A stretch of 64,000 nucleotides of DNA from the IMG/VR virus record IMGVR_UViG_3300031857_000065, positions 34,476-98,475 of that record; one strand, given 5' to 3'. This DNA comes from a virus. Numbering within the stretch: the first letter of the stretch is position 1; every line of letters begins with the position of its first letter. A program made the translations under genes and the position numbers. Under the pieces are notes generated by a model. It did no database searches, was not told the DNA's origin, and saw only the letters and a list, made by a program, of their open reading frames with translations. Positions 15,305 to 51,879 of this stretch are shown piece by piece.

Positions 15305-15820
15305 TTAAACGAAAGGTATTACTGATGCTAACACAGTAAATGTAGCATTTGCTGTTTTTATTATAACATACGAATACACATCAATACAATTTGTGTTACC
15401 CGCTGAGGGAACAGCACCACCTTGCCATTTTGGTGTTACAGAAGCACCATCAATTGTATGAGATGTGACATAAAATGCGGGAGAACCGTTTGTTACTAAA
15501 AACGCCAAACTCAAACTTTGCCCAATATACATTATATTATTTAATGTAGTTGAAATGTCACCTGTGAAGTTTAGAGTCCAATTACCCGATGAGTTGGTTG
15601 TATAATACAACACCCCTTGTGATAATACATTAAAATTAATTGTCCCCGTTGCCGCAGTCGCAGCAATAGTATTTTTTTCTAATATTTGTTGTAGAACTGT
15701 CGTACCGCCAACATGAAGAGAACCACTTGGTGTGGTCACATCTCCAACTGATAGTTTGTTCACAGGTCCGATATTCGTTCCAGTTCTTATTAATGCGCCA
15801 GAAAGTCTTGTCTCAGCCAC
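15305..15820 (-). CDS. Virion protein, stand-alone capping-like domain
   Basis: 171 aa starting at GTG (15820) with GAGGTG upstream. Residues about 43-171 are clearly paralogous to the last ~130 residues of the 874-aa protein at 57910-60534: both share TAATGTINF/Y, NWTLNF, LAFLVTNGS, TSHTIDG, TPKWQGGAVPS and IIKTANATFTV. Each copy directly precedes a TPSIT-repeat gene with the same type of N-terminus, so this domain probably attaches or caps the repeat fibre. The short N-terminal part (ETRLSGALIRTGTNIG) looks like a linker. Function is inferred from this paired arrangement. Confidence 0.7.
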   Translation of the reverse strand: MAETRLSGALIRTGTNIGPVNKLSVGDVTTPSGSLHVGGTTVLQQILEKNTIAATAATGTINFNVLSQGVLYYTTNSSGNWTLNFTGDISTTLNNIMYIGQSLSLAFLVTNGSPAFYVTSHTIDGASVTPKWQGGAVPSAGNTNCIDVYSYVIIKTANATFTVLASVIPFV

Positions 15821-15847
15821 GAATACACCTCACGTTATACATTTCAT

Positions 15848-15856
15848 ATAAATATG
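15848..15856 (-). promoter_or_regulatory. Candidate promoter element (ATATTTATA)
   Basis: Exact minus-strand ATATTTATA centred in CATATTTATATG, 28 bases upstream of the GTG start at 15820 and inside the 40-base gap after the stop of protein B. Confidence 0.5.
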
Positions 15857-15860
15857 AATT

Positions 15861-20933: not shown

Positions 20934-20946
20934 CTACTACCTCATA

Positions 20947-21291
20947 TTACGGTTGAGTGGGCCAAATAATGTTTTCAGGTTCTACTTGTTGTTGAGGAAC
21001 GTTTCGTAATTCTTGACGATAAGATGCCCACGCAGCTTTTTGTCCAGCATCTAACGGACTGTCAGATAACTGCGTCCAATCTGATGATTGTAATAATTCA
21101 TCTCGGTCAGCACGAACCACATCCCACTTTAGTTCTAATGATACTTCCGCATCCAATCCACGAAGCTCCAATTCTGTGGGTTTTGGTATTGTGTTTTCTG
21201 GATACCAAGCTAATGTGTTGTAATCATCATTACCACATGTCCATATCGTATTTGGATATCGTTTTGTAAGAATTTCTACTAAATTTGCCAT
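20947..21291 (-). CDS. Phage tail/fibre assembly chaperone-like protein
   Basis: 114 aa. The C-terminal half has the pattern of the phage tail assembly chaperone family (PF16778-like): VVRADRDELLQSSDWTQLSD, SPLDAGQKAAWASYRQELRN, then VP. The N-terminal half (NLVEILTKRYPNTIWTCGND) is short and variable, as expected for a partner-specific part. Such proteins help fold or trimerise tail fibres and are encoded beside them, as here between fibre protein B and the 1408-aa protein. Confidence 0.75.
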   Translation of the reverse strand: MANLVEILTKRYPNTIWTCGNDDYNTLAWYPENTIPKPTELELRGLDAEVSLELKWDVVRADRDELLQSSDWTQLSDSPLDAGQKAAWASYRQELRNVPQQQVEPENIIWPTQP

Positions 21292-21305
21292 AGTACATAA
21301 CTCCG

Positions 21306-34874: not shown

Positions 34875-36467
34875 TTAAACTCTTGAGAGCTTGTCGAGGT
34901 AGATCTTACCGAAGAATTCCGGACGAACAATCTTCTTCGCGTAACGGGTCATTACGCCGCGACGTGGTGTGAAGTTGTTTGGATCATAGACAAGTGGGGT
35001 CATAATTAATGGAATGTATGGTGCATATACTGCGCCAGTTTCCAAGAATTGTGAACCACGGAAGCCCATCAACATTACGTTTTCCTTCATGTATGGGTTC
35101 TTGTATACGGTGAAACGGTTAGCAAATGAACCAATCTTGGTTACACCAGCTGCGAATTCCATCTTGTCACCATCGGTACCAGCTTGGAAGCCAGGAATGG
35201 TTTCAAGAATTGTTGCTGCGGTTGGCGAAACAACTGCGAAGTTTGCACCACCACGCATTGTTGCTTGGTGAATCTTGTTTGATACTTTTTGCATCTTTTG
35301 ACCAAGTGTTTGGTACCAGGTCATATTGGTCCATGCAGTTCCTTGGAAAGAGTTAGCTGCAAAGGTTGAACCGTTCCATACAGTACCAATTTCTGCTGAC
35401 CAGTATTCGGTGTTAGCTGCTGGTGCTGCTGCAATTAACATATCAAGAATTTCAAGGTCAATTTCAGTTGCAACATAGTCACTCAACATTGCTGTTAATT
35501 CTGCTTCTGCGTCAATTGAGTGGTATGCGTTCAAGTCTTGTGCAAGTTCTGGTGACCAGACTGCCTTCAACTTACGGGTCTTAGCAACGATAGTTTCTGA
35601 CTTAAGTTCCAAATCAATTTGTGGAATTGCCAAATCAGTTGTTGCGTCAACTGGACCGCCTGTACGATCTTCAAAGTCACCACGGGTTGTGTCCGTTGGT
35701 TGCTTGACAAAGAACAAATGTGTTGCTGCATCGTTTGTAGTTGCGTTTACGATGAAGGTAAGATTTGTACCATCATACTTGGTAAATTCTGGAAGCAATT
35801 TGCTTGCAAAATCAACGGTTGAACCAGAAATTACGAATGCACGTGATGCTAAGAAATCACCGTTTGATGCAGAAACTGCTGGTACTACGTACTTGGTCAA
35901 TGAACCAGTTACAAGGAATTCATCATTGTAGTTTACATCAGCAAATGTTACTGATTGTGATGCTACTGAATTGATTGCAACTGACGCGTCATTGATTGAG
36001 TAGCCATAACGTCCTGCACCATACAAACCACCGGTAGTTTGGTTACCGAAAGTGGTGAATGGTGAAGAAAGTGTACTACCATAAAGTGATTGTTGTGCGG
36101 TTTGACCGTTTGCGGTATTACCGTACTTGAAGTCCATATAGAACACCAAACCTGCTGGGAGGTTCATTGGTTGAACTGATACGAAATTCTTTGATGCAAT
36201 TGAACCAAAGACCTTACGGACTAATGGAAGTGCAACACCTGCCCAGTTTTCACCAGCTGTGCCTGCACCTTGTGGATTTGTTACTGTTACTTCACTGATA
36301 AGTTGTTGTGCTTGGTTTTCAAGCAAAACTGACATACCTTGCTTTTCATATCCCTTTAAGCCTTCAAGAAGACCTGACTTTTCCCACTTTGCTGATAATC
36401 CGCGTGTTTGGTTGATGATTACATCGTGAGCGGACTTAGCTTCACTAATAAGTTCATGTACTGACAT
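34875..36467 (-). CDS. Major capsid protein (gp23-like)
   Basis: 530 aa (T4 gp23 is 521). LISEVTVTNPQGAGTAGENW at residues about 56-76 and PLVRKVFGSIASKNFVSVQP are characteristic of gp23, as is LKAVWSPELAQDLNAYHSID later. The sequence QQLISE (residues 54-59) followed by Val fits the (L/I)-x-E cleavage rule of the gp21 protease and is near the place where T4 gp23 is cut (residue 65), so the first 59 residues are probably removed on maturation. GGAG precedes the start; a strong terminator follows. Confidence 0.95.
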   Translation of the reverse strand: MSVHELISEAKSAHDVIINQTRGLSAKWEKSGLLEGLKGYEKQGMSVLLENQAQQLISEVTVTNPQGAGTAGENWAGVALPLVRKVFGSIASKNFVSVQPMNLPAGLVFYMDFKYGNTANGQTAQQSLYGSTLSSPFTTFGNQTTGGLYGAGRYGYSINDASVAINSVASQSVTFADVNYNDEFLVTGSLTKYVVPAVSASNGDFLASRAFVISGSTVDFASKLLPEFTKYDGTNLTFIVNATTNDAATHLFFVKQPTDTTRGDFEDRTGGPVDATTDLAIPQIDLELKSETIVAKTRKLKAVWSPELAQDLNAYHSIDAEAELTAMLSDYVATEIDLEILDMLIAAAPAANTEYWSAEIGTVWNGSTFAANSFQGTAWTNMTWYQTLGQKMQKVSNKIHQATMRGGANFAVVSPTAATILETIPGFQAGTDGDKMEFAAGVTKIGSFANRFTVYKNPYMKENVMLMGFRGSQFLETGAVYAPYIPLIMTPLVYDPNNFTPRRGVMTRYAKKIVRPEFFGKIYLDKLSRV

Positions 36468-37933: not shown

Positions 37934-39406
37934 TTAACGTGGTTTAACTCTTATTCCAAATCTTTTTGCGTACGCATTTACCATACCCATTGCTTGTTTA
38001 TACGCTGAATGTGTTTTGTCTTTACGTAATGCCGTCTGTACAAAAATCTTCTCACCCGTATCTGGATTAGTGACTTTACTTCTTAATAATTGTTTTATTG
38101 TTTCTCTTTTTGATTTTGGTGTGGTAGTTGGTGGTGCTGGTTGTGGTTTCTTTACAGCCAAACGTTTTTTTGCTGCGTTTTCAATTTCTTTCGCAGGTTG
38201 CCCGTCCTTTGGATAATCAAATATAGGTTTTTTAATTTGAGCTAACAACTGATCCCTTTCATTCTGGTCTTTACCCAATGCGTATAAAAATTTATGTTTA
38301 CCAGTTTCCGGCTTTAATTTCTCAATAAAAAATCCTTTGTCTGCTAACGATTTTAGTACAGAAGATTTAATTGTTGTTCGAGTTACTGTATCGCCTGTTT
38401 TTGGATCCGTAATTGCCCAACCAGTACGAGGTGGTTGTTCTCCAAGATATGTTGCATTACTTGCTTTATACACAGACCCTGCGTGACCTTGTGCGCTGTC
38501 TGCGTAGGATACAATTGCTTTTACTGGTTTACCGTCTTTAGTTTTTGCGTTTGTACGAATGTATTCATTACCACGCGATATTACCATTGACCCAAGATTT
38601 GGTACTAATTGTTTTGCTTCGTCAGTAGTGAACGCCCGTTGAAGTTCCCACAGTTGATTGTTTGCCATCACACCTGGTCCAAAAATATCGGTTGCCGCTT
38701 GCCCTCTTGTCCCAATACCATAGACCAATGTTCCCGACAATTTACCATCAACATATACGCCTAATGTGGATTGAACAGACTTTGGCCATTTTTTGAGATA
38801 ATGTTGGGTACGTATCCACTCGTCTGCTTGTACGTAATCGTCATCACCTTTTTTAATAGGACGAAGTTCAACTTCTTTTTTAGGAGATGTTGTAGGTTCT
38901 TCAGGTTCTTTTACTTGATGCACCAACATCTTAACGTCTGGATATTTTGCTTTTAATTTATTGACTGCTTCAATATTTTTTGGTGAGTCGTCAACAAATG
39001 CAACTCTAGTGTATCCGTCTTGTATTTGTTTTTCTATGTATCTTGCTTTTTTTTCTGGGTTGGAATCTCCCAGTGCCGCAATTGCAACACTACCCGAACG
39101 AATTCCAATCATTTTTAAAAATTGTGCAACTGGTCTAGTATGCCCTCGGGCCGTTAAAACCACAACTTTATCTGCGCTCTCTACTGCAGCTTTTAATAAT
39201 TTAACAAATCGTTGAATTGGTCGTGGATTTTTTAATTGCTCAAATTCTGAAAAATCAAATTGATCGCCCGGCTGTTCTTCATATGTAGCATATTCAGCTG
39301 GATCCATTTCTATCCGATTACCATTTCTAACGACAATAACCTTGGCATCTGTGCGTGCCAAGGTATCATCAAAATCTGTTACAAATAAAGTCTTTCCCTT
39401 TGCCAT
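37934..39406 (-). CDS. HAD-family phosphatase / Mom-like fusion protein
   Basis: 490 aa in three parts. Residues 1-~165: HAD hydrolase with LFVTDFDDTLART (motif I, D-x-D-x-T), VVVLTARG (motif II) and VAFVDDSPKNIEA (motif IV). Residues ~175-330: a domain resembling phage Mu Mom-type GNAT-fold proteins, with WIRTQHYLKKWPKSVQSTLG, LWELQRAFTTDE and IVSYADSAQGHAGSVYKASN. Residues ~430-490: a basic module, LLRSKVTNPDTGEKIFVQTA, also found at the end of the 53193-55760 protein. Mom modifies adenines in phage DNA; whether this domain does so is unproven. It lies between head genes and could be packaged. Confidence 0.72.
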   Translation of the reverse strand: MAKGKTLFVTDFDDTLARTDAKVIVVRNGNRIEMDPAEYATYEEQPGDQFDFSEFEQLKNPRPIQRFVKLLKAAVESADKVVVLTARGHTRPVAQFLKMIGIRSGSVAIAALGDSNPEKKARYIEKQIQDGYTRVAFVDDSPKNIEAVNKLKAKYPDVKMLVHQVKEPEEPTTSPKKEVELRPIKKGDDDYVQADEWIRTQHYLKKWPKSVQSTLGVYVDGKLSGTLVYGIGTRGQAATDIFGPGVMANNQLWELQRAFTTDEAKQLVPNLGSMVISRGNEYIRTNAKTKDGKPVKAIVSYADSAQGHAGSVYKASNATYLGEQPPRTGWAITDPKTGDTVTRTTIKSSVLKSLADKGFFIEKLKPETGKHKFLYALGKDQNERDQLLAQIKKPIFDYPKDGQPAKEIENAAKKRLAVKKPQPAPPTTTPKSKRETIKQLLRSKVTNPDTGEKIFVQTALRKDKTHSAYKQAMGMVNAYAKRFGIRVKPR

Positions 39407-39877: not shown

Positions 39878-40462
39878 TTATTTTATTTCGCTGAGGAAAT
39901 CGTGAATTAATTTGTCAATATTGTCATAAGGCGCAACAACTTTTGATTGAACATTTTCGTTGATAAATGCACCAATAGTTGATGGATTACTAACAATATC
40001 AAAACAAATTAACGAAAAATCTTCTTGTACTTCAACGGTGTTTTCTCCAAGCGATTTTACCGAACCCATACCTCGGGACGATACGCCTAGACGGATATTG
40101 TTCTTAATAAGTTCACGAACAATATTACCAGTTGGTGTGGTGAGTATTTCAATGTCTCCACGAACGTCATCACCTTCTGTCCATAATCCGACGATATTGC
40201 AGCAAACATTCTTAAGGTTGACAACTGGACTTTCTGGATGGTCGAGTTCACCTAATGCTCGGCGGCTTTCCACAAAGTTCTTCTTATACATAGCCGCTTC
40301 ACGCATCAAAATTTCTTTTGGATAGACTCGGCCGTTTTGGTTTTTGGCATCGGCACGTTGTAATACGACATTACGAAGAACTAATGGTTTGTTACTGTCC
40401 ATTGCTTCCGTTAGAATACTACGGTCGTATTGTAATTCAGTATATTCACAAAGTAATGCCAT
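39878..40462 (-). CDS. Prohead core protease (gp21-like)
   Basis: 194 aa, close to T4 gp21 (212 aa). The serine-protease fold of herpesvirus assemblin type is indicated by ALGELDHPE (catalytic His, about residue 77) and NIRLGVSSRGMGS (catalytic Ser, about 130). AKNQNGRVYPKEILMREAAM is also typical. It cuts capsid, scaffold and internal proteins after (L/I)-x-E during head maturation, which is relevant to the many head-region proteins here that carry such sites near their N-termini. Confidence 0.92.
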   Translation of the reverse strand: MALLCEYTELQYDRSILTEAMDSNKPLVLRNVVLQRADAKNQNGRVYPKEILMREAAMYKKNFVESRRALGELDHPESPVVNLKNVCCNIVGLWTEGDDVRGDIEILTTPTGNIVRELIKNNIRLGVSSRGMGSVKSLGENTVEVQEDFSLICFDIVSNPSTIGAFINENVQSKVVAPYDNIDKLIHDFLSEIK

Positions 40463-40476
40463 ATATTTTCCTATAA

Positions 40477-41052
40477 TTAAATATCGTATGGGTCATTGAT
40501 ACTAAACGTATCAGTTTCAGAATCATAACTAAATGGTTGTTCATAGCTATTGTTATTTTGAGCTGTCCAAACTGCTGCCTTTCTTGGAATACCCGTTGCG
40601 GCAATAAATTCATCCGCAGGAATGTCATCATAATACTTGTACTTACCTAATAATGCATCGGAAGTATCAAAAAATTTACTAATAACTTTGTCAGCAATTC
40701 TATTCCCCGCATCAGTACCGGTGTATTTTCCCATTGCGTTAAATTCCGCATCCTTTTCTGGTTCTGGTCTGTTTCGTCGTCGTTGTTGATCTGGTGTTTT
40801 AGTTACCATTGTAGATGCACCAATAGGACGATTTGCTTTTTTTGCTTTATCAGCCGCTAACGGATTCATAGCTTTTAATGGAACAAGTTTTCCACTTTGG
40901 GTTGTATGGGTTATTTTGTCTTTTGTACCCCAACGACCAAATCCTCTATATACTAAACCTTGCTTCTTTGCATCATCACTTGCTTGTGATTCTAATTCCA
41001 ATTCTTCGTTGATTGTTTCACGAATAATTTCCATTAAACGAGATTTTTTCAT
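40477..41052 (-). CDS. GFGRWG-module protein 1, putative internal head protein
   Basis: 191 aa. The N-terminus is a short charged helix (MKKSRLMEIIRETINEELEL) with I-x-E sites. Then comes a module shared with two other proteins of this window: AKKQGL, GFGRWG (residues 37-42), THTT and GKLVPL. The rest (GKYTGTDAGNRIADKVISKF onward to FSINDPYDI) is unrelated to the other two and unrecognised. It follows the portal-proximal genes and precedes the protease gene. Likely packaged in the prohead. Confidence 0.55.
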   Translation of the reverse strand: MKKSRLMEIIRETINEELELESQASDDAKKQGLVYRGFGRWGTKDKITHTTQSGKLVPLKAMNPLAADKAKKANRPIGASTMVTKTPDQQRRRNRPEPEKDAEFNAMGKYTGTDAGNRIADKVISKFFDTSDALLGKYKYYDDIPADEFIAATGIPRKAAVWTAQNNNSYEQPFSYDSETDTFSINDPYDI

Positions 41053-41053
41053 A

Positions 41054-41557
41054 TTATCCTCTCATCTCACGAAGGCGGCCGGCAAGTTCTACAAGCTTAC
41101 CTTCTAGTTTGGTCATTTGGTGTTTGGTACGTTTCCACAATTTGTCGTCTGAAATACCGTACTCTTTCTTTAAACGACTATTCATTTTTAAAGCCCGTTC
41201 TACTAGCTTTAATTGTTTGTTTAATTCAGAGATAGCCGTACCAATCTTTTGATGAGGAAGTTTACTGGTATCATTCCGATATTCATAGTAATAGTTTTCC
41301 GTGAGAGTCTTAAACTCATCTTTTAACTTATTATAAGACTCGGTTAACTTATCACCTTTATTGTCTTTTTTACCTTTATTTGTCAGCGTATACCCGATGC
41401 GTTTTGCCATACGGTCAACTGATGCGGTTCTATCTTTTTCCCCAGAAAAAGCATGTGGAGTTAAATACCCAGGAACACCGGCAGTAGTTGAAATTTCATT
41501 CATTAATTCACGAACCATCTTTCGAATATATTCACGGAGGCGTTGTTCTTTATCCAT
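41054..41557 (-). CDS. Conserved helical protein of the head region (167 aa)
   Basis: The N-terminal helix MDKEQRLREYIRKMVRELMN contains an L-x-E site and is followed by EISTTAGVPGYLTPHAFSGE, a motif I associate with head-gene clusters of marine T4-like phages. The remainder is a long helical, Lys-rich region (KLTESYNKLKDEFKTLTENY, then LVERALKMNSRLKKEYG). It may be a core or internal protein. No enzymatic motif is visible. Confidence 0.5.
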   Translation of the reverse strand: MDKEQRLREYIRKMVRELMNEISTTAGVPGYLTPHAFSGEKDRTASVDRMAKRIGYTLTNKGKKDNKGDKLTESYNKLKDEFKTLTENYYYEYRNDTSKLPHQKIGTAISELNKQLKLVERALKMNSRLKKEYGISDDKLWKRTKHQMTKLEGKLVELAGRLREMRG

Positions 41558-41560
41558 ATA

Positions 41561-42421
41561 TTAACTCAACGAATTCATATCTTGTACTAATTGATATGCA
41601 ATAAGAAGTGCTGTGATGTGGTTTTCTTTAATGATTGGTTTTGCTTGTATATTTTTTAGTTGTGCAACGACTTCGTGTAGTTTGATACGAGTTACCTCGT
41701 TTTTAATTTTTACACTTTGTTTTTTAATTTGAGATTCTAAAAACGTTGCTTCAGCTATTGCATATTTTCTAAACTGCTCAACATCTGTTCCTTTATTGAT
41801 ATATTCACGAAGTAATGCTTTTTGTTTGTCATTAAAATTACTATATTTTTCATTAAATCGTTCTAATAAAAATTTATATGACAGATAACGAATTTCTTCA
41901 TCTTGACCACGAAGTGCTTCAACGTATGAGCTTTCTTTAATAATTTCTTCTTCTTTAAAAATACCTTGCAAATGTTCCACTACCAAAAAGCGTGATTTTA
42001 CCACATCCTCCAATTGCATCACATCATCAGAACCACTTTCAAAAAGTTTATAAATTGATGCATACACTTTATAGGAAGGAACACGACCGTTTAGAAATTG
42101 TTTTAAATCACAATTTTGTTTAATTTCTTTAATTAAAAGAAATTTTTGTGCAGAAAGTACTTTTTCATTTAAACTACGGCGGCGTTGAACAATTAAATCA
42201 AGCATGTTAAATGCTTTACTTTCCGTCAACTTCGGTGTATTAAAAAACGTGCGATATAATTGCAACTCCTTTCCAAGTTCTGATTTTGGATGGAAGTGCT
42301 CACGCATCAATTTGATGGCAAAACTATCTTGTTTGCCATCTAATACATCCGTTGCGATTTTTCTAACCAGCAATTCAAACAAAATGCCGGTATTCTTAAT
42401 TTTATTGTGTTTGAGGCTCAT
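41561..42421 (-). CDS. Conserved T4-like phage protein beside the portal (286 aa)
   Basis: All-helical protein starting MSLKHNKIKNTGILFELLVR. This N-terminus recurs in proteins next to portal genes in marine T4-like phages, but no function is established to my knowledge. It has no membrane segment or metal motif. Its position between portal and protease suggests a role in prohead assembly. A weak promoter-like motif (42468-42460) lies 39 bases upstream. Confidence 0.5.
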   Translation of the reverse strand: MSLKHNKIKNTGILFELLVRKIATDVLDGKQDSFAIKLMREHFHPKSELGKELQLYRTFFNTPKLTESKAFNMLDLIVQRRRSLNEKVLSAQKFLLIKEIKQNCDLKQFLNGRVPSYKVYASIYKLFESGSDDVMQLEDVVKSRFLVVEHLQGIFKEEEIIKESSYVEALRGQDEEIRYLSYKFLLERFNEKYSNFNDKQKALLREYINKGTDVEQFRKYAIAEATFLESQIKKQSVKIKNEVTRIKLHEVVAQLKNIQAKPIIKENHITALLIAYQLVQDMNSLS

Positions 42422-42459
42422 ATGTTATCCGTATTTAACGAGTAAACAACCATCATATA

Positions 42460-42468
42460 AGTAAATAT
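42460..42468 (-). promoter_or_regulatory. Possible promoter element (ATATTTACT)
   Basis: Minus-strand ATATTTACT, two mismatches to the recurring motif, in the 59-base gap downstream of the portal gene. Confidence 0.3.
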
Positions 42469-42480
42469 AATCGACATATA

Positions 42481-44385
42481 CTAACCGTCCAATTTAGTGT
42501 CTGGAATAATGCTGTCAGCAATCATCTGACGGTATTTACTTACACCCTTTCTAGGTAATTTGTCTAGAAATTGCTTGGCTTCCGTAGAAAGTGTACTTCT
42601 TTTATAGGTTTTGGTATTTTCTTTATGCCCCAAAGGATCTCTACCTAACGGATGTCTATCCGTACCAAATTTTAATCCTTCACGGGGACGACCAACTTTA
42701 TTTTTCACTAAAATTTCTTCCAGTTCATCGTCCATCGATTCATCTTCATCGATATCTTCCCCCAACGAATTTAAAATAGCATTTACATCGTCGAGTTCCT
42801 CTGGTTCCACACCATCTTCTTGGCCCATTTCTGGGTCTGGTCCTAATTCAACATCAGCATCTGCTGGAGTTGCTGGTTGTAATTCACCCGATGGAGCGTC
42901 ACCACCTTGTGTTCCCGATTCTTGTGGTTGTGCCGCAGCTTGTTGTTCTTGAACACGTTTAATATCGTCCATTATTTTTTTACGCTCATCTTCAACTTCT
43001 TCTTGCGACATTTCAAGAATATGCTTATATACCCAATCTTGTGAAAGAATTTGAGCTTGTCCGCCGGTCATATCTCTTGCCAAAGCAAACTTTTCTTTCC
43101 AAATATTAATTTTTTCTTGTTCGTAAAGCGTAGATGGATTTGTTAATGCTAATTCAAAATTTACCAATTCCTCGTCAGTAAATCCTTGAACATATAGATG
43201 AATAATAGCAATTTTAGTTAATTCCGATACCACGATACGTTGGATACGTTCAACTGTTCGAGCAAAGCGAACGTCTTGTGCAGCCAATGTAGCTTTTCCA
43301 TTAATATCTTCTTCATATCCAATAAATGATTTAGGGACTTTAAATGCTGCAAGTAACTTTTGACGAAGGTATTCAATATCTTCAATAGCATTAAATTGTA
43401 GACCTTGCATTGTTTCAATGTCAGTACCCGAATCTCTACCACGAACGGGCATATAAAAATCTTCTACAATGTTCATCATGTTATAACGAAGATTATAATC
43501 ACCAGTTTTTGGATCGATAAGTGGTGACTTTTTCATGCGATCAATAATACGCTGCATATATGTTTCCACTTCATTTGGTGGAATATTACCAATATCAATC
43601 TTAAACTTACGTTTATCTGGTGCACGCATAATGCGATGTACTAACATTGCGTCTTCCATCAATTGTAATTGCTTCCAGACACGACGACCGCCTTCAATCA
43701 TTGCCTTACCATATGGAAGGAAATTGGTATCAGAAAGGAGACGGAAGTGTGCAATTTCGTAATTATCGAATTCCTTTTTTCCAAGATTCAAGAAATCATT
43801 TTGTATGTGAAACTCTACAGAAAAAGGATTTTCTGGATTCGCACCTTCCACTCTAGTAGTTTCGTAAATTGATAACGGTACAGCGTTAACGATACCATAC
43901 TCTGGGTCTATGTCCAGATATAAGAAAAAATCCCCGTATTTTGTAAGATTGCGAATCCACGGCCAGAGATTAAATTCCACATTTAATACATCATAAAATA
44001 AATTTTCTAGAATCTGTTGAATTTGTGTGTTATCAGTTTTAATAGCAAGAATTTTACTGAATTCGTCTTTTACTGTAGATTCGTCTGCGTAAATGTCCAA
44101 CACAGAAGATATAATTGGATCATTATCCATCATATCGTAATCACGGAATAATTGGAGACGTGCGCCTTGAAATGCCGCTGCAGTTTCCATTCTACCGTAA
44201 TGTGAACCATATCCACCAGTTCCCGATTGATATACGCGAGTATATCTGTCAACACCTCGTCTATTGATAAAAGACTGAACGTTGTCTGTGTCAGCGATGC
44301 GTAATTTTTTACCACCGACATTTCTGACGATGGTACTTGTAGAAAATAATTTTTTAAGTCTTGAAAATACAGTATTATCTGCCAT
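42481..44385 (-). CDS. Portal protein (gp20-like)
   Basis: 634 aa, longer than T4 gp20 (524 aa). SGTGGYGSHYGRMETAAAFQ, RDYDMMDNDPIISSVLDIYA with DEST, and GKATLAAQDVRFARTVERIQ are highly characteristic of T4-type portals, which form the dodecameric DNA gate. The extra length is a C-terminal tail (about residues 480-634): Gln/Pro/Asp/Glu-rich, then KNKVGRPREGLKFGTDRHPL and a basic end. The tail may face the scaffold or internal proteins. GAGG precedes the ATG. Confidence 0.93.
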   Translation of the reverse strand: MADNTVFSRLKKLFSTSTIVRNVGGKKLRIADTDNVQSFINRRGVDRYTRVYQSGTGGYGSHYGRMETAAAFQGARLQLFRDYDMMDNDPIISSVLDIYADESTVKDEFSKILAIKTDNTQIQQILENLFYDVLNVEFNLWPWIRNLTKYGDFFLYLDIDPEYGIVNAVPLSIYETTRVEGANPENPFSVEFHIQNDFLNLGKKEFDNYEIAHFRLLSDTNFLPYGKAMIEGGRRVWKQLQLMEDAMLVHRIMRAPDKRKFKIDIGNIPPNEVETYMQRIIDRMKKSPLIDPKTGDYNLRYNMMNIVEDFYMPVRGRDSGTDIETMQGLQFNAIEDIEYLRQKLLAAFKVPKSFIGYEEDINGKATLAAQDVRFARTVERIQRIVVSELTKIAIIHLYVQGFTDEELVNFELALTNPSTLYEQEKINIWKEKFALARDMTGGQAQILSQDWVYKHILEMSQEEVEDERKKIMDDIKRVQEQQAAAQPQESGTQGGDAPSGELQPATPADADVELGPDPEMGQEDGVEPEELDDVNAILNSLGEDIDEDESMDDELEEILVKNKVGRPREGLKFGTDRHPLGRDPLGHKENTKTYKRSTLSTEAKQFLDKLPRKGVSKYRQMIADSIIPDTKLDG

Positions 44386-44400
44386 AAAACCTCACTTATG

Positions 44401-44739
44401 TTAGTCTGCGATAAGTTCGTCCAACGCTTTTACAAACGGAAGGACATCGACTTTTTCAGATTCTAATAATTTTGAAGCTTCTTCTTTAGCTTCAGCAATT
44501 TTAGATATTAATGCTACCTTTAACACCGGCCACTCTGGATATGCGTTCCATAATGTATAAGGTAATTCATTAAGTTTTGTAGCCATTTGATGAATTTCTG
44601 TGCAAATTTGTGTCAGTTTTGTTGCGTTATTCTTAGCGAGCACCGGCAACATTTTCTCCATTAGCACTTCTAATTTCATCAAGTTGATACGGTTTTCTTT
44701 ATTACCGTGTTCTATTAATATATCTTTTAAGCGAATCAT
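44401..44739 (-). CDS. Small helical protein with capsid-targeting-like N-terminus
   Basis: 112 aa. The first residues MIRLKDILIEHGNKEN resemble T4 capsid-targeting sequences, with LIE as a possible gp21-type cleavage site. The rest is helical (KLEVLMEKMLPVLAKNNATK and EAKEEASKLLESEK), without an enzymatic motif. It starts with a TAATG overlap and AGGAG upstream. Candidate internal head protein. Confidence 0.5.
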   Translation of the reverse strand: MIRLKDILIEHGNKENRINLMKLEVLMEKMLPVLAKNNATKLTQICTEIHQMATKLNELPYTLWNAYPEWPVLKVALISKIAEAKEEASKLLESEKVDVLPFVKALDELIAD

Positions 44740-45197
44740 TAATTTTTCTCCTTGTCGAGATGCGAACGCATCTTTTTTACATCTTTAGGTTTTGGTGCTC
44801 CTTTAATGTAACCAACTGGACCCACTAAACTTGATACGCTTGAAGTTGGTCCTGCGGTCCCACTTATATCTTCGTTTTTAGTTTCAATATATTTTTTTAG
44901 TAAAGTATAATAATTTGGCTTCTCCTTCAAGTGGGCCGCTGCTATCTTTGCCGTCTTGACGATATTGCCTTTAGTAACGTCTTGATGTTCTAATTCGGTG
45001 TTCATACCCAACAAAAACTCGTTGAAGTCAAAGTCATATCCCATCTTATCATAAATACGCTTTGCGTCAACCTTACTAATATAAGTATTCTCATTTACCG
45101 TGGGAGTGGTCTTTTTTGTTTCCAATCGGTCAAGGAGTTTTTTCGTACCCCGCATCGAATCACCCATCAATAAATCTACAATCGTCATTTTTTTCAT
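44739..45197 (-). CDS. DUF5661-like protein (152 aa)
   Basis: The segment YDFDFNEFLLGMNTELEHQD, followed by GNIVKTAKIAAAHLKEKPNY with YTLLKK, fits the DUF5661 pattern (E/D-F-x-x-G-x-x-x-E-L-E-H ... A-x-x-H-L-x-E-x-P-x-Y-Y) as I remember it. The N-terminus MKKMTIVDLLMGDSMRG is a short hydrophobic helix that could be a targeting sequence. The function of the family is unknown to me. The conserved Glu and His residues hint at metal binding. Confidence 0.55.
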   Translation of the reverse strand: MKKMTIVDLLMGDSMRGTKKLLDRLETKKTTPTVNENTYISKVDAKRIYDKMGYDFDFNEFLLGMNTELEHQDVTKGNIVKTAKIAAAHLKEKPNYYTLLKKYIETKNEDISGTAGPTSSVSSLVGPVGYIKGAPKPKDVKKMRSHLDKEKN

Positions 45198-45198
45198 A

Positions 45199-46416
45199 TT
45201 ATTTTTCTAGCTGTTGAAGTTGAACGGTATATGTGACATTAATCAATCGTCCGTCTGGTTCTGTTATAGTTTTTTCTCGTCTGGTTTCTTGTTGTAGTAC
45301 ACTCATAATTTGGAACTTTGACGACCGAGTAACCACTTCAGATTCTTTTTCGTGAGCGTTTCGTGGAATACCAGCGAGATGCATTGCTCGAAATCCTTTT
45401 TTTGGAGGAAGAGCGCGAAGAATAACAGATACTTGTGGGTCACCAATATTTGCAAAATCCATTGCCACTTTAAGTGTTGTGGTAAATCCTGACGGTGGGA
45501 GTTCAATGGTACCACCAGAAGTTATCAATTTTATAAATGATTTTGCGTAGTCTATATTTTTATTTGTAAAATAAACGCCACGATATAGTTCTTTTGCTTC
45601 AGTTACACGAAGGTTAGCTTGGTCAATTAGCTTATCCATTGTTTCGTAAATTTGCAATCTTTGACTTGTAATTCTGTCAAATACTTTATCGTCAGTCCAC
45701 ATTCGAATATTTGCTAGAACTTGTTGTCTATCTGAACGGGCGGGGTCAACCGGCGTTGTCCATATTATGCCAGTAGCCACATCTACTTCAGAAGGTTCTC
45801 CTGTTTTGGGATTGAATGGTTTTTTTAGTTTATATAATTTTCCAGTACGAAAATCTGCAGCGTGAGTTACCTTTCCACTTGGACCAATAAACAATGTACC
45901 CCGTAACAAACTACCCGGCAAGTTAGCTCGTTTCAATCCTAATGTTTTAACTTGTAGTCGAATTGCCTTTTCGTTTGGTGTTTCTGCAGGGCCTTGTGTT
46001 AACTGATCAATTTGTGTCCAATGTGATTTAGCTTCTTCAACCACTTCAGGTGGACGACTCCATTCTGCACTTAATCCTTGACCCTCCGCATATCGTTCTC
46101 GTCGGCGTTCTAAACGTTCTATTGAAGTTTCTTCGTCTGCTCCAGCCCACGGATTAGGAAGAAGCCACGGAAGTAATGGTTCACCCCTTTGAACTTTAAC
46201 TTTCTTTTGTTGCGATGTGCTTTTTGGTTTTTGTGTTGTACCACCTTTATTTTTTGCAACAGGGACAAGTTTACTACCTTCGGTTTTATGCGTGGTAACT
46301 CCTTTTTTGTTTACAATTTTACCCCAACGACCAAACCCCAGATATTTCAAGCCTAATTTTTTAGCTTGTTCTGCTGGGGTAAGAGTTTCAATAAGGTAAT
46401 CGTTAGTCGTAAACAT
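45199..46416 (-). CDS. Putative packaged ADP-ribosyltransferase with GFGRWG module
   Basis: 405 aa from the ATG at 46416 (TAATG overlap with upstream stop). N-terminus MFTTNDYLIETLTPAEQ looks like a T4 capsid-targeting sequence with LIE. The GFGRWG module (residues 27-32, then THKT and SKLVPV) follows. The C-terminal third shows the R-S-E order of Arg-type ADP-ribosyltransferases: KELYRGVYF (Arg near 277), PSGFTTT (near 307) and KESEVVT (E-x-E near 356), as in VIP2 and T4 Alt. T4 Alt is packaged in the head and modifies host RNA polymerase; a similar role is plausible. Confidence 0.65.
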   Translation of the reverse strand: MFTTNDYLIETLTPAEQAKKLGLKYLGFGRWGKIVNKKGVTTHKTEGSKLVPVAKNKGGTTQKPKSTSQQKKVKVQRGEPLLPWLLPNPWAGADEETSIERLERRRERYAEGQGLSAEWSRPPEVVEEAKSHWTQIDQLTQGPAETPNEKAIRLQVKTLGLKRANLPGSLLRGTLFIGPSGKVTHAADFRTGKLYKLKKPFNPKTGEPSEVDVATGIIWTTPVDPARSDRQQVLANIRMWTDDKVFDRITSQRLQIYETMDKLIDQANLRVTEAKELYRGVYFTNKNIDYAKSFIKLITSGGTIELPPSGFTTTLKVAMDFANIGDPQVSVILRALPPKKGFRAMHLAGIPRNAHEKESEVVTRSSKFQIMSVLQQETRREKTITEPDGRLINVTYTVQLQQLEK

Positions 46417-46880
46417 TACCACTTACGACAAGACCAATACCGAGCTTTTGTTCTTGGACCAGGATTATCGCAATTATGTCGTGCTCTAAAATTCTTACGT
46501 CGGCCTGGATTGGACTTTTTAATTCTCATAGATTTGTCACCAAAATTAACTTTTTTAACATTTCCGGTTTTTGGGTCTTTAACATATACCTTAAACTTCT
46601 TGACATCACCTTGCATCGGCTTTCCAAGTTTAACTTTACGACCTTGATATTCTGCTTCCATCATTAAATTAGCATGTTCTTTGATGTACTCTGCTAAACA
46701 TGCTGAACAGAACTCACCTTCGTACAAATCATTTTCGTTAACGGGGACACAATTAGGAACCATTTTACCATTTTTTTCTTTCATCCCAACTTGTTTGTAT
46801 CCGTCCCAGCACGCTTCTTCTAGTCGTGTTTCGTCAACTGGAAATTGTGCGTTAAACATATCATTGTCTAGATTAGCCAT
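46416..46880 (-). CDS. Conserved Cys-containing head-region protein (154 aa)
   Basis: Conserved-looking blocks: RLEEACWDGYKQVGMKEKNG with KMVPNCVPVNE, then FCSACLAEYIKEHA (a C-x-x-C pair), then a basic C-terminal part PGRRKNFRARHNCDNPGPRT ending ARYWSCRKW. The blocks are familiar from marine T4-like phages near portal genes, though no function is known to me. The cysteines could form a zinc site with the C-terminal Cys and His residues. LEE near residue 20 may be a protease site. Confidence 0.55.
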   Translation of the reverse strand: MANLDNDMFNAQFPVDETRLEEACWDGYKQVGMKEKNGKMVPNCVPVNENDLYEGEFCSACLAEYIKEHANLMMEAEYQGRKVKLGKPMQGDVKKFKVYVKDPKTGNVKKVNFGDKSMRIKKSNPGRRKNFRARHNCDNPGPRTKARYWSCRKW

Positions 46881-46882
46881 AG

Positions 46883-47209
46883 TTAATCTTCCTTCTTAAA
46901 TGTTGATACCATCTTTGGTTTTCCACCGGTATTTTTTGCTTTTCGTTTTCTAGTAACTGCCGATCGTTTTTCACCTTTGGTCATTGCTGCCGCAGAACGA
47001 GCCGGTCTACACTTTGGATACTTTGCTGATCCACCTTTTCGTTCTTTCTTACCTGCTGAATCACCACATGGTGGATGTTTTCCGTCTTTATTTTTACGAG
47101 AAATGTCTACCCATTTTTGACGAAGCCATTTACCAAGACTACCTTTGGTCTTGTATTTTTCGTCAAGTTGGTCAACAACTTCTTCTAAAATATCAGTAAG
47201 ACTAATCAT
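46883..47209 (-). CDS. DUF5872-like basic protein (C-terminal-type half)
   Basis: 108 aa from the ATG at 47209; the frame extends to 47302 but would overlap the upstream gene by 100 bases. MISLTDILEEVVDQLDE is a capsid-targeting-like helix. KWLRQKWVDISRKNKDGKHP with PCG, then AKYPKCRP and MTKGEKRSAVTRKRKAKNTG resemble one half of a family (DUF5872) that I recall from phages and giant viruses. It is strongly basic, so may bind DNA in the head. The other half of the pattern is encoded by the gene just upstream. Confidence 0.5.
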   Translation of the reverse strand: MISLTDILEEVVDQLDEKYKTKGSLGKWLRQKWVDISRKNKDGKHPPCGDSAGKKERKGGSAKYPKCRPARSAAAMTKGEKRSAVTRKRKAKNTGGKPKMVSTFKKED

Positions 47210-47432
47210 TTTTACCCTTCTTCCACCCACCACCCATACTCTTATATTTCTTTGCTGCCCATAAGTTAGCATATGCAGATGGATATACATCAAATTTAGC
47301 ACGTGCAGCTGCTTTTGCTTTTGACCATTTATCGGGGTCCGTAGGCGTGTTTTTTTCTAGTAAATTAAACACTTCTTCAGCAAGTTGTAAATTTTCGTTT
47401 AATATATCACGATAAAAATCTTTGTATTCCAT
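47202..47432 (-). CDS. DUF5872-like small protein (N-terminal-type half)
   Basis: 76 aa. WSKAKAAARAKFDVYPSAYA, followed by NLWAAKKYKSMGGGWKKG, is the conserved VYPSAYAN block of the family described for the neighbouring gene. The first 27 residues (MEYKDFYRDILNENLQLAEE) form a helix with an LNE site. The stop overlaps the next start by eight bases, so both halves are co-translated and may form one functional unit. Confidence 0.5.
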   Translation of the reverse strand: MEYKDFYRDILNENLQLAEEVFNLLEKNTPTDPDKWSKAKAAARAKFDVYPSAYANLWAAKKYKSMGGGWKKGKND

Positions 47433-47797
47433 TATTTTAAAAACTTCAACTTGTACACGGTAGATGAAATTAAACCAGAAATTTCATCAACAGTATTGTT
47501 GAGTTCCCCGTCTTGTGGTAAAGTTTGACGAATATTGTCTACAAACTTCTGTAATCCCATAAAGTACTTAAGAAAGTTACCATCTTCAATCAATGCCATA
47601 TTTGTTGCAGAATATCCCGTAATAATTCCATAACGACCTTGTGCCATTTCCGCATACGAATCAATAAGATCAACTATTCCAGAATAATAATCATCTAATG
47701 CTTTATGTGCGGCAAATGATGTAGTCTGTAAATGAAATATATGTGCTTGATTACGACTTGCCATCAACGTTGCGATAAACTTTGCAATCTCTTCCAT
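47432..47797 (-). CDS. Dps/ferritin-like four-helix protein (DUF5856-like)
   Basis: 121 aa. The segment QAHIFHLQTTSFAAHKALDD, followed by YYSGIVDLIDSYAE, follows the spacing of the Dps and ferritin-like ferroxidase signature (H, a dozen residues to a second H, then D and E one to two turns later). Dps proteins bind iron and protect DNA; the catalytic residues look present, but the chain is short of the usual ~160 residues. It is coupled to both neighbours by TAATG overlaps. It may bind DNA in the head or be an unrelated structural protein with that fold. Confidence 0.5.
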   Translation of the reverse strand: MEEIAKFIATLMASRNQAHIFHLQTTSFAAHKALDDYYSGIVDLIDSYAEMAQGRYGIITGYSATNMALIEDGNFLKYFMGLQKFVDNIRQTLPQDGELNNTVDEISGLISSTVYKLKFLK

Positions 47798-49440
47798 TAT
47801 TCTTCTCCCTTATAATTCATAAATGCTTTTTCTATTACTTCATCTGGGATATCCATCTCTTCCATATTTTTTAATACTAACTCAATAAATTTTTCCATCA
47901 TTGCGTCATCAGTTTGATCTTCTGGACCAGCGAACAATGCCGCACGTCCTGCTCCCTTTAAGATACTTTCACCAACAACGTGTGGAATAAATTCAATTAA
48001 GACTGCCTTACCAAGTGCGGCCGCACCACCTGCTGCAGCTCCAAGACCCGTAGCAACTACAGCAGTCATAACTACTTTTGTTGCAACAGATTGCATTGCT
48101 TTCTTTTCACGTTCATTTGGTCCTTTACCACGGAAGAATCCACGAAGTCCACGACCGGCATCACGAAATACTGCTTTTTCATGTTTTAATTCGTGTTTAA
48201 TATCTTTCCATGCACCTTTTGCTTTATCACGAACTTTTTCAACTAGAGAACGGCGTTCTGGTGTCTTACCTTTGTGTAGTTCTTCTTCAAAGAATGCTTT
48301 GGCTTCTTCTTTTTGCTTCTTACCCCACGATTTAACCGTATCCAACATACGTCGAGTAAATCCTTTTTTCTTTGGTTCTTCTTTTGGAGTTTCTGCAGAT
48401 TTACCATCACCGGCCGATCCCGTATCTGCTGCTTTAGCACGAATACCAATATCTTCTGCAAATTTATTAGATTTTTGTACTAAAGGTTCAATATCATCAT
48501 CAATAACACGAACTTGCATTTCAATTTGATCGTTTGGATTAGATGCGTTGTGTGCAACTACTGCCGCCCAACGATGATGTCCGTCTAATACATACCCATC
48601 ACGACTGACATAGATTGGTGCGGTAATCTTTCCATATGCAGGATGGTTCTTATCTGCTAATACCTTACTCATACCTGCTACCTTCACACCAACCAATTCA
48701 GATTGCGTTGCCTTTAATCGGTCAGGTGGAACGGTGGTTGGTTCTGATACCTTGATGCCATCCTTTTCCAACATTTGCTTAAAGAATTCTTCGGTATCTA
48801 CTTCTCCATCTTTATCTTTAGGAAGTTTATCTGCTGGAGATCCCGCGCGTGGTGTACCTTTAAATTGAGGCATTTCGGCACGAGGAATACCTTTATTATC
48901 ACCACAGAATAGGTTAGTGCCGGGAATGGCAACTTGACACAAATTAAAGTTTGGTGCTTTTTCTCCCTTTGCTTTAGCTTCTTCGCCCATCTTTGCTAAA
49001 TCATCAATACGAGTAGCAACTTGCTGGAGTTGTTCTGATGGGACTTTACTTAATGGACGACCTGACAATTTTGCTTTAGGCATTGCTTGTTGTGCTTTGT
49101 CTTTAGCTGGGTCTGGTTCTTCTTTAGGTTGTTCTGGTTTAGTTTCACCTGCGGCTGTGTCTTTTTTAGGTTGATTATCTTGTGGTTTTTTCTCACCAGA
49201 TGGAGCTTCTTTTTCTTTCTCATCATCTTGTTTTACTGGTTCGAGTTTACCATCTGTGGTTTTGTGAGTTACTTTATCGTCCTTACCCCAACGACCGAAT
49301 CCCATACTTTTTAAACCCATTTTTTTAGCTTGGTCAGCAGCAGATTCTTGCTCTTCGAGAATTTTAATAAATTTCTCGTTTCGTTGTAAAGCTTCTAATA
49401 AGCGTTTTTCAAATTTTTTAAAATCAAACGCGTTATTCAT
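47797..49440 (-). CDS. GFGRWG-module protein 3 with ParB/Srx-like domain
   Basis: 547 aa. The N-terminal helix (FKKFEKRLLEALQRNEKFIK) is followed by the module AKKMGL, GFGRWG (residues 47-52), THKT, GKLEPV. A long Lys/Glu/Pro linker (about 65-115) follows. Around residues 225-330 is a ParB/sulfiredoxin-like domain with YVSRDGYVLDGHHRWAAVVA (DGHHRW near 283). Then a basic helical region, and a Gly/Ala-rich hydrophobic stretch (about 445-500) that could span or perturb a membrane. ParB-like domains bind nucleotide and can act as nucleases. Likely an injected or internal virion protein. Confidence 0.6.
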   Translation of the reverse strand: MNNAFDFKKFEKRLLEALQRNEKFIKILEEQESAADQAKKMGLKSMGFGRWGKDDKVTHKTTDGKLEPVKQDDEKEKEAPSGEKKPQDNQPKKDTAAGETKPEQPKEEPDPAKDKAQQAMPKAKLSGRPLSKVPSEQLQQVATRIDDLAKMGEEAKAKGEKAPNFNLCQVAIPGTNLFCGDNKGIPRAEMPQFKGTPRAGSPADKLPKDKDGEVDTEEFFKQMLEKDGIKVSEPTTVPPDRLKATQSELVGVKVAGMSKVLADKNHPAYGKITAPIYVSRDGYVLDGHHRWAAVVAHNASNPNDQIEMQVRVIDDDIEPLVQKSNKFAEDIGIRAKAADTGSAGDGKSAETPKEEPKKKGFTRRMLDTVKSWGKKQKEEAKAFFEEELHKGKTPERRSLVEKVRDKAKGAWKDIKHELKHEKAVFRDAGRGLRGFFRGKGPNEREKKAMQSVATKVVMTAVVATGLGAAAGGAAALGKAVLIEFIPHVVGESILKGAGRAALFAGPEDQTDDAMMEKFIELVLKNMEEMDIPDEVIEKAFMNYKGEE

Positions 49441-49441: not shown

Positions 49442-49972
49442 TTATTGTCCTTTGTGTGATTTATATCCCTTGTTCTTCATCCAATGTGCTAATGCCCACG
49501 GATTATCAATACCAGGTTCGTCTTTCATTGCTTTAACCGTACCTTCCCATCCCTCTGGTGCTTTTTCGGTTACTGGTGCATCCATACAACCTTCACCCTC
49601 ACACGGCATATTTTCCATAGGTGTATTATATTCATGATAGTTAGTAGATGCTTGATTAATAAAATTTTGTGCTTGAGAAATGTGGTCTTGAATCCACGCT
49701 GGAATATCCTTTTCCCCCGCGCCCATCTTTGCCTTGAGTTCAGTTGCACTACGAATAATATCGTCTAATAATCCTTGTGCCATTGATACTTCGTGATCAC
49801 CTCCGTGAGTTTCATTTTTAGCACGAAGTTTTGCAAGATCATCACCTTCAATCTTACCATCTTTATCAACATCAAGTTGTTTTTGCTTATCAGTAAGTTC
49901 TGCTTCTTCTAATGCAGACCCTTTTAAAGTCACAACTGGTCTTAAATTTACTAATCCCGTTAAACGAATCAT
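49442..49972 (-). CDS. EF-hand protein of the head region
   Basis: 176 aa from the ATG at 49972, right after the upstream stop. N-terminus MIRLTGLVNLRP, then ALEEAELTDKQKQLDVDKDG with KIEGDDLAKL, a canonical EF-hand loop (D-x-D-x-D-G-x-I-x-x-x-D/E). A helical middle (HEVSMAQGLLDDIIRSATEL) and PCEGEGC follow. The C-terminus PEGWEGTVKAMKDEPGIDNP with WALAHWMKNKGY is a motif I have seen in several phage proteins. It is probably a calcium-stabilised virion component; not proven. Confidence 0.55.
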   Translation of the reverse strand: MIRLTGLVNLRPVVTLKGSALEEAELTDKQKQLDVDKDGKIEGDDLAKLRAKNETHGGDHEVSMAQGLLDDIIRSATELKAKMGAGEKDIPAWIQDHISQAQNFINQASTNYHEYNTPMENMPCEGEGCMDAPVTEKAPEGWEGTVKAMKDEPGIDNPWALAHWMKNKGYKSHKGQ

Positions 49973-49974
49973 AA

Positions 49975-50238
49975 TTACTCTCCACCATCGATGGCGATAT
50001 TGGTTGCTGTTGCCCACAAATAATCTTCCCACTCGTCGCCAAATTCTTTTTTAAAGTATTTAACTGCGCCGGGATTGTCTAACATCTTTTGTCCAACTTT
50101 ATCCCTACGTTTAACTTGAGCACTAGTCATTTCCCGTGCACCGTTTCTATTGTAAGGTTGCGGAACCGATTTTTCTTGAACGTTCATAAGACTATGTAAT
50201 TCAGTTCGAACTAATTCTCTCAATTCATCAGGTTTCAT
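49975..50238 (-). CDS. Small conserved protein downstream of the terminase (87 aa)
   Basis: N-terminus MKPDELRELVRTELHSLMN is a helix of capsid-targeting type with LRE. The C-terminal part, QVKRRDKVGQKMLDNPGAVK then YFKKEFGDEWEDYLWATATN, is a block found in several phage proteins, where KRRD...A is followed by an F/Y-G-x-x-x-E-D-x-x-x-A-x-A-T helix. Function unknown. It is first in its unit after a promoter-like motif. Confidence 0.5.
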   Translation of the reverse strand: MKPDELRELVRTELHSLMNVQEKSVPQPYNRNGAREMTSAQVKRRDKVGQKMLDNPGAVKYFKKEFGDEWEDYLWATATNIAIDGGE

Positions 50239-50298: not shown

Positions 50299-51879
50299 TT
50301 ATCCAAGTAACCAAGTAATATCTTCTGTTTGTCGATCCCCGATTTGCATCTGGTATGGGTTCTTTACTTGATTTCCGTTTAGTGCAAAAGGCATAGTTGT
50401 ATACGCAGTGCGTTCTAACGATAATTTTGTTAATTCAATTCCTTGTTGACGCAATCGTAGTGCCGTATCTCGTACCCACAAACCAATTCCTAATGCAAAT
50501 ATTAAGTCATCATTATATCCTTGCAATGCCTCTGCTCTACCATTTTTCCAAATAAAAGTTTCAAATTCAGTTATAGTTCTTACAGATTGGACTGTGATGG
50601 CATTTTCTCGCATATATTCTTCAATTTTAGCGATAATCAACGGACGCGTTCGAGATGAAACAACAAATCCAGGTTTCATATTTCGTTCAGTAACAAATTT
50701 TTTGTCAGTAATTTGATGTTCAACATCTACATAATGCATATCTGCTGACATATAGAATAGATTTCGGTATCCTCTGTCAATTACTTGTTGAATTGCCGCC
50801 CATCCAATCGATGAATTATCAGGTATTAATAAAGCGTCATTATATTGTGTAGCGATAGACATCATCAAATTACCAAATTCTTTTGTAGATAATTTACCTT
50901 TATATTCTGCTACCTGTAAAGATCGTTCTGCGTCAATAACATGAAATGTAGAAAAGTCTTCGCCATCACCACGTGCAACGTCCGCAGCGACGATATACGT
51001 CTTTCCTGGAATAGGATACTCCCATACCCATAGGTTGTTATCAAATCCCTGCTTTGATATTGGTTCTTTGATATGTGTTCTTTTATAGAATTCAATTATA
51101 TCTGGACTGACGACTGTGTTACCTGAAAATATGAAGGATGCATCGTGTTCTTGTGCCGCTTGCATCTCACCTAAAATTTCAGTCTGTCTATCTCTCCATG
51201 CCTGATCTCGTTCTGGATGAACTCTCCAATCTAATAATATTGTATTAAATTCATTTGTTTTTGCTTCTGCTTGTTGCCACATCTTGTGGAAGAAGTTACC
51301 GACACCATTTGGAGTAGAAATTAATATAGCTTTACCACCAGTTGATAACGTACTGGATGCTGCGGTCCAGATAATTTCCGCGTTATCGATAAACGCACAC
51401 TCGTCAAGAATAAGAAGAGACAATGCTTCAGAACGACCAGCATCTTTACTACTTGCTACAGCTTTAATTTGCGATCCATTTGCAAATCTCATCGATAACT
51501 TATTATCTTCTACCATACTTCCTCGTAACCAAACGGGAAGATTGGCATGCATAAATCTTACCTTTGTTACCAAGTTTTTTGCAGTATCTTGTTTTGTTGC
51601 GATAACTAATACGTTTTTATCTTTATGAAATAACATTAACCACAATGCATATCCTGCAACCAATGTAGAAAATCCGAGCTGGCGTCCCTTAAGAACAATA
51701 TTATATCGATTTTCTTCAAAATCCTGCATCGCGTTTAATTGGTATGTGTATAAATCAAACAACACCCGACCGCGAATCGGGTGTTGAATAAATGAGTATT
51801 TCTTTAAAAAGTATTCTGGACTCGCCGCACACTTTTTAAACTCTGCTTTAATAATATCTTTTATATTTGGTTGTGTCAT
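50299..51879 (-). CDS. Terminase large subunit (gp17-like)
   Basis: 526 aa. The ATPase domain has NIVLKGRQLGFST (Walker A-like, about residues 59-71), LSLLILDECAFI (Walker B with catalytic Glu, about 152-163) and KAILISTPNGVGN (coupling motif). The C-terminal nuclease domain has KTYIVAADVARGDGEDFSTF (first catalytic Asp) and LLIPDNSSIGW (second). It pumps DNA through the portal and cuts headful units. Slightly shorter than T4 gp17 (610 aa). The small terminase subunit was not recognised in the window. Confidence 0.95.
   Translation of the reverse strand: MTQPNIKDIIKAEFKKCAASPEYFLKKYSFIQHPIRGRVLFDLYTYQLNAMQDFEENRYNIVLKGRQLGFSTLVAGYALWLMLFHKDKNVLVIATKQDTAKNLVTKVRFMHANLPVWLRGSMVEDNKLSMRFANGSQIKAVASSKDAGRSEALSLLILDECAFIDNAEIIWTAASSTLSTGGKAILISTPNGVGNFFHKMWQQAEAKTNEFNTILLDWRVHPERDQAWRDRQTEILGEMQAAQEHDASFIFSGNTVVSPDIIEFYKRTHIKEPISKQGFDNNLWVWEYPIPGKTYIVAADVARGDGEDFSTFHVIDAERSLQVAEYKGKLSTKEFGNLMMSIATQYNDALLIPDNSSIGWAAIQQVIDRGYRNLFYMSADMHYVDVEHQITDKKFVTERNMKPGFVVSSRTRPLIIAKIEEYMRENAITVQSVRTITEFETFIWKNGRAEALQGYNDDLIFALGIGLWVRDTALRLRQQGIELTKLSLERTAYTTMPFALNGNQVKNPYQMQIGDRQTEDITWLLG

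Follow-up and report, generated by a model that had tools for sequence, protein, structure and literature searches.

Proteins that share a GFGRWG module around the portal gene of a T4-like virus are probably leader-directed internal head proteins

Large phages carry proteins inside their heads and deliver them into the host cell, and which proteins these are has mostly been learned afterwards, by mass spectrometry. In phage T4, the internal protein ipII begins with the 10-residue leader MKTYQEFIAE, which is removed, and in the leader of IPIII residues 4 and 7 are important for targeting, and 8 and 10 for processing (PMC9026906). A T4 leader of about ten residues is sufficient by itself to package foreign proteins (PMC9026906). 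Here, we consider a 64,000-nucleotide stretch (the window; positions 34,476 to 98,475 of IMG/VR record IMGVR_UViG_3300031857_000065) which forms part of a 98,475-base T4-like myovirus record, and in which three genes of the head block encode proteins of 191, 407 and 547 residues that share a short GFGRWG module. The original prediction was that this module is the tag by which such proteins are sorted into the head for delivery with the DNA. Our analysis leads us to a different division of labour, in which the three are probably internal head proteins of the T4 type, sorted mainly by their N-terminal leaders, with the module representing a mobile, accessory domain of the cargo. The leader is of a type already known from T4, and the module is a previously unnamed domain, found again in hundreds of related phages and chiefly on enzymes that are apparently packed into the head and injected.

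The module comprises about 36 residues, and its copies, all on the minus strand, read ASDDAKKQGLVYRGFGRWGTKDKITHTTQSGKLVPL in the 191-residue protein (40873..40983), PAEQAKKLGLKYLGFGRWGKIVNKKGVTTHKTEGSKLVPV in the 407-residue protein (46255..46377), where four residues are inserted after GFGRWG, and AADQAKKMGLKSMGFGRWGKDDKVTHKTTDGKLEPV in the 547-residue protein (49231..49341). Read on the plus strand, the gene coordinates yield nothing but stops. Alignment reveals 17 positions that are invariant in all three, with the signatures AKK.GL, GFGRWG, TH.T and KL.P by which the module was originally recognised. That recognition was correct, as the similarity lies far beyond chance. Domain E-values for a profile of the module range from 1e-17 to 1e-21 (within the record, 1.6e-18 for the 191-residue protein and 2e-21, the best match, for the 547-residue protein), a 41-residue query recovers itself from the 98-kb record at 3e-25 and the other two copies at 6e-12 and 9e-10, and blastp aligns the 407- and 547-residue proteins at 51% over 49 residues (2e-7). 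Neither profile nor query found a fourth copy in the whole record. The three copies also resemble one another as DNA, for instance in the run GGTCGTTGGGGTA, which suggests a shared and perhaps recent ancestry. The module is real, and it is predicted to be a small, independently folding domain, modelled by AlphaFold2 from 42 aligned copies as a helix and four strands (pLDDT 80, pTM 0.52). It has no match in Pfam or NCBIfam, appears in PHROGs only as the N-terminal part of the long phrog_3561, and gave no credible or useful-scoring match to the PDB by either sequence or fold. The strong viral matches from Foldseek came from further phage proteins, among which are several known carriers and one named as an ADP-ribosyltransferase, and no homologue was seen among cellular proteins.

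Behind the module the three bodies are, as first proposed, completely different, with no relation detected by Pfam, PHROGs or NCBIfam. The 191-residue protein (40477..41052; minus strand, as are the other module genes, the leaders, and the protease, portal, capsid, terminase-like and HAD genes below), whose gene immediately precedes that of the prohead protease, has no match in any of these collections. The 547-residue protein (47797..49440) had been labelled ParB-like, a label with support from a motif and from PHROGs. It carries a probable ParB/sulfiredoxin-like domain (YVLDGHHRWAA, containing DGHHRW) together with a conserved C-terminal region, and phrog_2859 (function not assigned) covers its residues 168-336 at 8e-17; Pfam returned no ParB match. 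Distant matches to this body occur in 405 phage records, where some are annotated as structural or internal virion proteins. For the 407-residue protein (45199..46422; 405 residues from an internal ATG, 45199..46416), the suggested likeness to ADP-ribosyltransferases holds at the level of C-terminal motifs read by eye (LYRG, GFTTT and the ExE-type ESE, also kept in its homologue L134) but does not extend to profiles or structure. There was no Pfam or PDB sequence match and no tblastn match to this body in phages, and a structural model from a two-sequence alignment reached a pLDDT of 36 and was discarded. From its R-S-E-type motifs alone, an ADP-ribosyltransferase function is plausible.

The leaders of the form MKxFxxFLxE found in cyanophages match the T4 capsid-targeting sequence at positions 4, 7, 8 and 10, and a single literature search found no description of such a leader in these phages. 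Within the window, the 407-residue protein begins MFTTNDYLIE (46387..46416), which fits the T4 internal proteins at the aromatic residue 7, Leu 8 and Glu 10, with Thr at position 4; its homologue L134 has MFTTKDYLTE/A. Two neighbours that lack the module have leaders in exact T4 register, namely MIRLKDILIE (44710..44739) on a 112-residue protein (44401..44739) and MISLTDILEE (47180..47209) on a 108-residue protein (46883..47209). The 191-residue protein has the leader MKKSRLMEIIRETINEELELE (40990..41052), in which LMEIIRE resembles a capsid-targeting sequence, and its orthologues in L060, L062 and L073 keep MK..(L)..IIRE.INE. In the 547-residue protein, the leader region (49351..49440) offers two candidate LxE sites, RLLE/A and ILEE/Q. 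Two first-ATG/GTG gene calls here, 46883..47302 and 49442..50032, begin too far upstream, and leader-like N-termini arise from internal ATGs (47209 for the former). Counted on strict protein clusters, the pattern [FYWLI]..[FYI][LIMF].E lies near the start of 21 of 33 module-bearing clusters compared with 38 of 799 others (p 3e-18, a value which overstates independence because clusters share ancestry), and at control positions the same pattern occurs in 0 of 31. Across nine cyanophage genomes, 19 starts matched a DNA pattern in the T4 register, whereas the reversed pattern matched 1.

Published virion mass spectrometry for three cyanophages bears on both leader and module. All four module proteins of these phages were detected: in S-CREM2, which has exactly two, the gp14 kinase (21 unique peptides) and the HNH 'Cas9-like' gp12 (28) are both in the 52-protein virion list from about 219 genes (PMC10665884); the single module protein of S-SM1, SSM1_190 (the T4-GC190 cytidylyltransferase, an NMNAT), was found in purified virions (PMC3037559); and so was the only one of S-SCSM1, the gp91 NMNAT (PMC9602691). 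Given detection of 52 of ~219, 41 of ~240 and 45 of ~290 genes, the chance of four from four is near 0.0015. The S-CRM01 kinase also carries the module and is cited, in a secondary source, as virion-associated. The prediction that module proteins are virion proteins is thus upheld in the cyanophages checked, and for the window phage we infer packaging and injection from these relatives. The leader, however, accompanies virion proteins with or without the module. Among the S-CREM2 virion proteins not annotated as structural are some that begin MKDFDSFLEE, VKRFDAFLTE, MKNFSSFLTE, MKDLHSFLTE and MQTFSMFFSE, a genome scan placed all five S-CREM2 genes that start with the leader in the virion list, and gp12 has FASFMAE at residues 18-24. 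Leader-bearing virion proteins that lack the module include gp6, gp13, gp136 and gp154 of S-CREM2 and gp140 of S-SZBM1. The cytidylyltransferase of S-SZBM1 is found in the virion although the genome of this phage has no module at all, and the idea that the module is needed for virion presence was rejected on that ground.

With a consensus of the module, tblastn returned 385 phage records at E-values accepted up to 10, so that the weakest may be chance matches; almost all are cyanomyoviruses, joined by Pseudomonas phages Lu11 and HRDY3 and Xanthomonas phage X1. Scans of IMG/VR and a profile gave 143 module reading frames, 84 of them distinct, at 124 loci. Among 84,980 genomes of bacteria and archaea, patterns of the window type, which could miss divergent copies, gave 111 matches and no relative; plasmids yielded none either. 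The carriers include NMNAT/cytidylyltransferase alone, NMNAT with a zeta-toxin-like kinase, DUF6267 with NMNAT, Ser/Thr-type kinases, HNH/'Cas9-like' proteins (phrog_3561), HAD phosphatases, a protein with an OmpR-type winged helix, a Lys-rich basic protein and several unassigned bodies; PADLOC gave weak kinase matches only. Many of these bodies are effector-like. The N-terminal position of the module, originally described as invariable, holds for the three window copies, whereas in the NMNAT-kinase proteins it is central (residues 460-520 of 700-920, some 460-520 residues from the leader) and in the HAD proteins of L060, L062, L070 and L072 (220-236 residues) it lies at the very C-terminus. 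Given these central and C-terminal copies, the module is no N-terminal signal but a mobile domain. A role in marking the cleavage site was likewise rejected, given the distance from the leader in the NMNAT-kinases. Two of the carriers merit separate mention. The winged-helix fusion (L021:57-815; Trans_reg_C 1e-22) is a possible injected transcription factor, and the Cas9 name of S-CREM2 gp12 (L037:7704-10313, annotated 'Cas9/Csn1') looks doubtful because its sole match is phrog_3561, to which no function is assigned, with no Pfam family.

What stands between leader and body can also be exchanged. Homologues of the ParB-like body that are about 62-77% identical (L144-L160) have a MIRLxDLLxE-type leader followed by a different mini-domain, KNKKTGNVYVVQ, and the homologue in L143 combines YTFLNE with a divergent HIGYGRY...GKFVPV segment. 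This exchange is our main reason to see the module as an accessory of the cargo and not as its address. Taken with the module-less virion proteins that share the leader and the distance between the two elements in the NMNAT-kinases, it speaks against the original proposal that the module itself is the sorting tag. We therefore favour the T4-type scheme, in which the leader would act like the T4 capsid-targeting sequence and bring each protein into the prohead core. The adjacent gp21-type protease (Peptidase_S77; 39878..40462; Pfam 6.6e-25, phrog_207 2e-50) would then remove it; leader similarity and a protease gene are observed here, and their cleavage relationship is reasoned from T4. The module behind the leader would have spread by copying among T4-like phages, onto many effector-like bodies that are not related to one another. 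Its job would most likely be accessory binding in the head or during ejection, perhaps holding the cargo to core, shell or DNA, and the proteins, once packaged and cleaved in the window phage, would be ejected as cargo.

Several points weigh against this interpretation, beside the shared ancestry behind the enrichment value. Two of the three window leaders (those of the 191- and 547-residue proteins) are longer, with LxE-type sites, and do not keep to the exact T4 register of 10 residues. No obvious leader accompanies the module in the HAD proteins or in the Lys-rich proteins of Lu11 and HRDY3, and whilst the S77 protease is present in nine of the twelve module phages examined, it was not found in Lu11 or HRDY3. 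The virion data come from cyanophage relatives; there, two small proteins with a leader, S-SZBM1 gp191 and S-SCSM1 gp30, are missing from the reported virion proteins, T4-GC190 was not seen in earlier S-PM2 proteomics, and CsCl-purified virions may carry abundant contaminants, as the S-CREM2 authors note (PMC10665884).

Because the HAD and Lu11/HRDY3 proteins have the module and no leader, one may consider the module to be an autonomous, position-independent domain for capsid sorting or retention, a second address beside the leader that would work from the C-terminus in the HAD phosphatases and on basic proteins in Lu11 and HRDY3, which we regard as an unlikely but reasonable alternative. Slightly less credible, in our judgement, is the stronger claim that the module is itself the head-sorting domain, which would carry cargo in by binding to the core or shell of the prohead whether or not a T4-like leader is present. 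The genes of the leaderless HAD phosphatases lie between those for the prohead protease and gp22/gp23, the Lu11/HRDY3 copies are leaderless, the kinases of S-H34 and S-CREM2 contain two module copies each, and every module protein with virion data is a virion protein, all of which would suit such a function. Yet virions also contain proteins with the leader only (S-CREM2 gp6, gp136 and gp154; S-SZBM1 gp140), the ParB-like body occurs without the module, and the virion data do not extend to the HAD or Lu11 carriers. It is improbable, we believe, that the leader alone packages these proteins and that the module acts after injection by docking effectors to one host target, such as the nucleoid, membrane, RNA polymerase or ribosome. 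The bodies do resemble host-acting enzymes (kinases, NMNAT, ADP-ribosyltransferase-like, nuclease, winged helix), and the Foldseek match to a named ADP-ribosyltransferase fits this, but the hosts are very different (cyanobacteria, Pseudomonas, Xanthomonas) and the module has no cellular homologue that we could see. That these are ordinary intracellular early or late proteins with a generic phage domain, carried over into virion preparations (carry-over being raised by the S-CREM2 authors), would agree with the several cyanophage carrier genes located near replication and nucleotide genes instead of head genes, but is very improbable given repeated detection across independent laboratories and phages, the association of leader with virion, and the head-operon location in the window.

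That location can be described more fully. The three module genes are arranged around the portal gene (gp20; 42481..44385; Pfam Portal_T4 5e-70) and are bounded by the S77 protease gene and a terminase-like large subunit gene (50299..51879), assigned from its sequence and position, which forms the upper border of the cargo block. The major capsid protein gp23 (34875..36467; Pfam Gp23 1e-72) has a candidate maturation site, LISE/V, near residue 60. Between gp23 and the protease, Pfam, PHROGs and synteny identify a fusion of a HAD phosphatase with a Mom-like DNA-modification protein (37934..39406), which lacks the module and has a NPDTGEKIFVQTAL segment at its end; the syntenic HAD genes of relatives end with the GFGRWG module instead. 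Other mini-domains are also present. One, CW.GY..VG.K.K.GK.VPNCVP, occurs in the window at 46416..46880 and is common among phage proteins that are otherwise unrelated, with matches to around ten PHROG families; it is found twice in tandem in L141 (5673-6242), and accompanies the GFGRWG module in L025/L026. Another, GPC.R..GE.KPKC....RA.L.K.ERA.AV..KR, lies downstream of the module in NMNAT-kinase proteins (L028, L097 and many NMNAT proteins), and the window protein at 46883..47209 has a comparable Cys-containing stretch on its own. Elsewhere, large proteins at 10646-25532 and 55799-57907 contain TPSITPS-type repeats, and the long antisense frames 11538-15308 and 16408-20004, opposite two genes of the former block, are probably composition artefacts.

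If this interpretation is correct, a leader in the T4 register together with a cargo domain would flag likely injected effectors (kinases, NAD enzymes, ADP-ribosyltransferase-like proteins, nucleases) directly in the sequences of hundreds of genomes, cyanophage and environmental, and the binding partner of a domain fused to so many head cargoes becomes a testable question. The closest comparison is with IPI-IPIII and Alt of T4, which the window proteins resemble in an N-terminal leader of similar kind (in T4, positions 4 and 7 hydrophobic or aromatic, 8 Leu/Ile and 10 Glu, of which the 407-residue protein fits 7, 8 and 10), an S77 protease gene alongside, varied cargo bodies and, in relatives, detection in virions. 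They differ in that no GFGRWG module is known from the T4 proteins, two of the window leaders depart from the exact register, and the window phage is known here from its genes alone. In cyanophages, the T4-GC190 cytidylyltransferase/NMNAT, the PKN8-like kinase and the phrog_3561 proteins have the same module, usually behind MKxFxxFLxE, and several are in virions, but these have been described as whole proteins, with neither module nor leader named in the literature we found. Polyvalent proteins (Iyer et al. 2017, PMC5512222) are similarly phage-packaged, multi-domain effectors with ParB, ADP-ribosyltransferase and kinase domains, whereas the window proteins are short, with one body and a mini-domain, and the comparison is one of general domain types. 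Nearest in architecture are the ParB-like homologues with MIRLxDLLxE and KNKKTGNVYVVQ, in which an unrelated mini-domain sequence occupies the same layout of leader, mini-domain and body.

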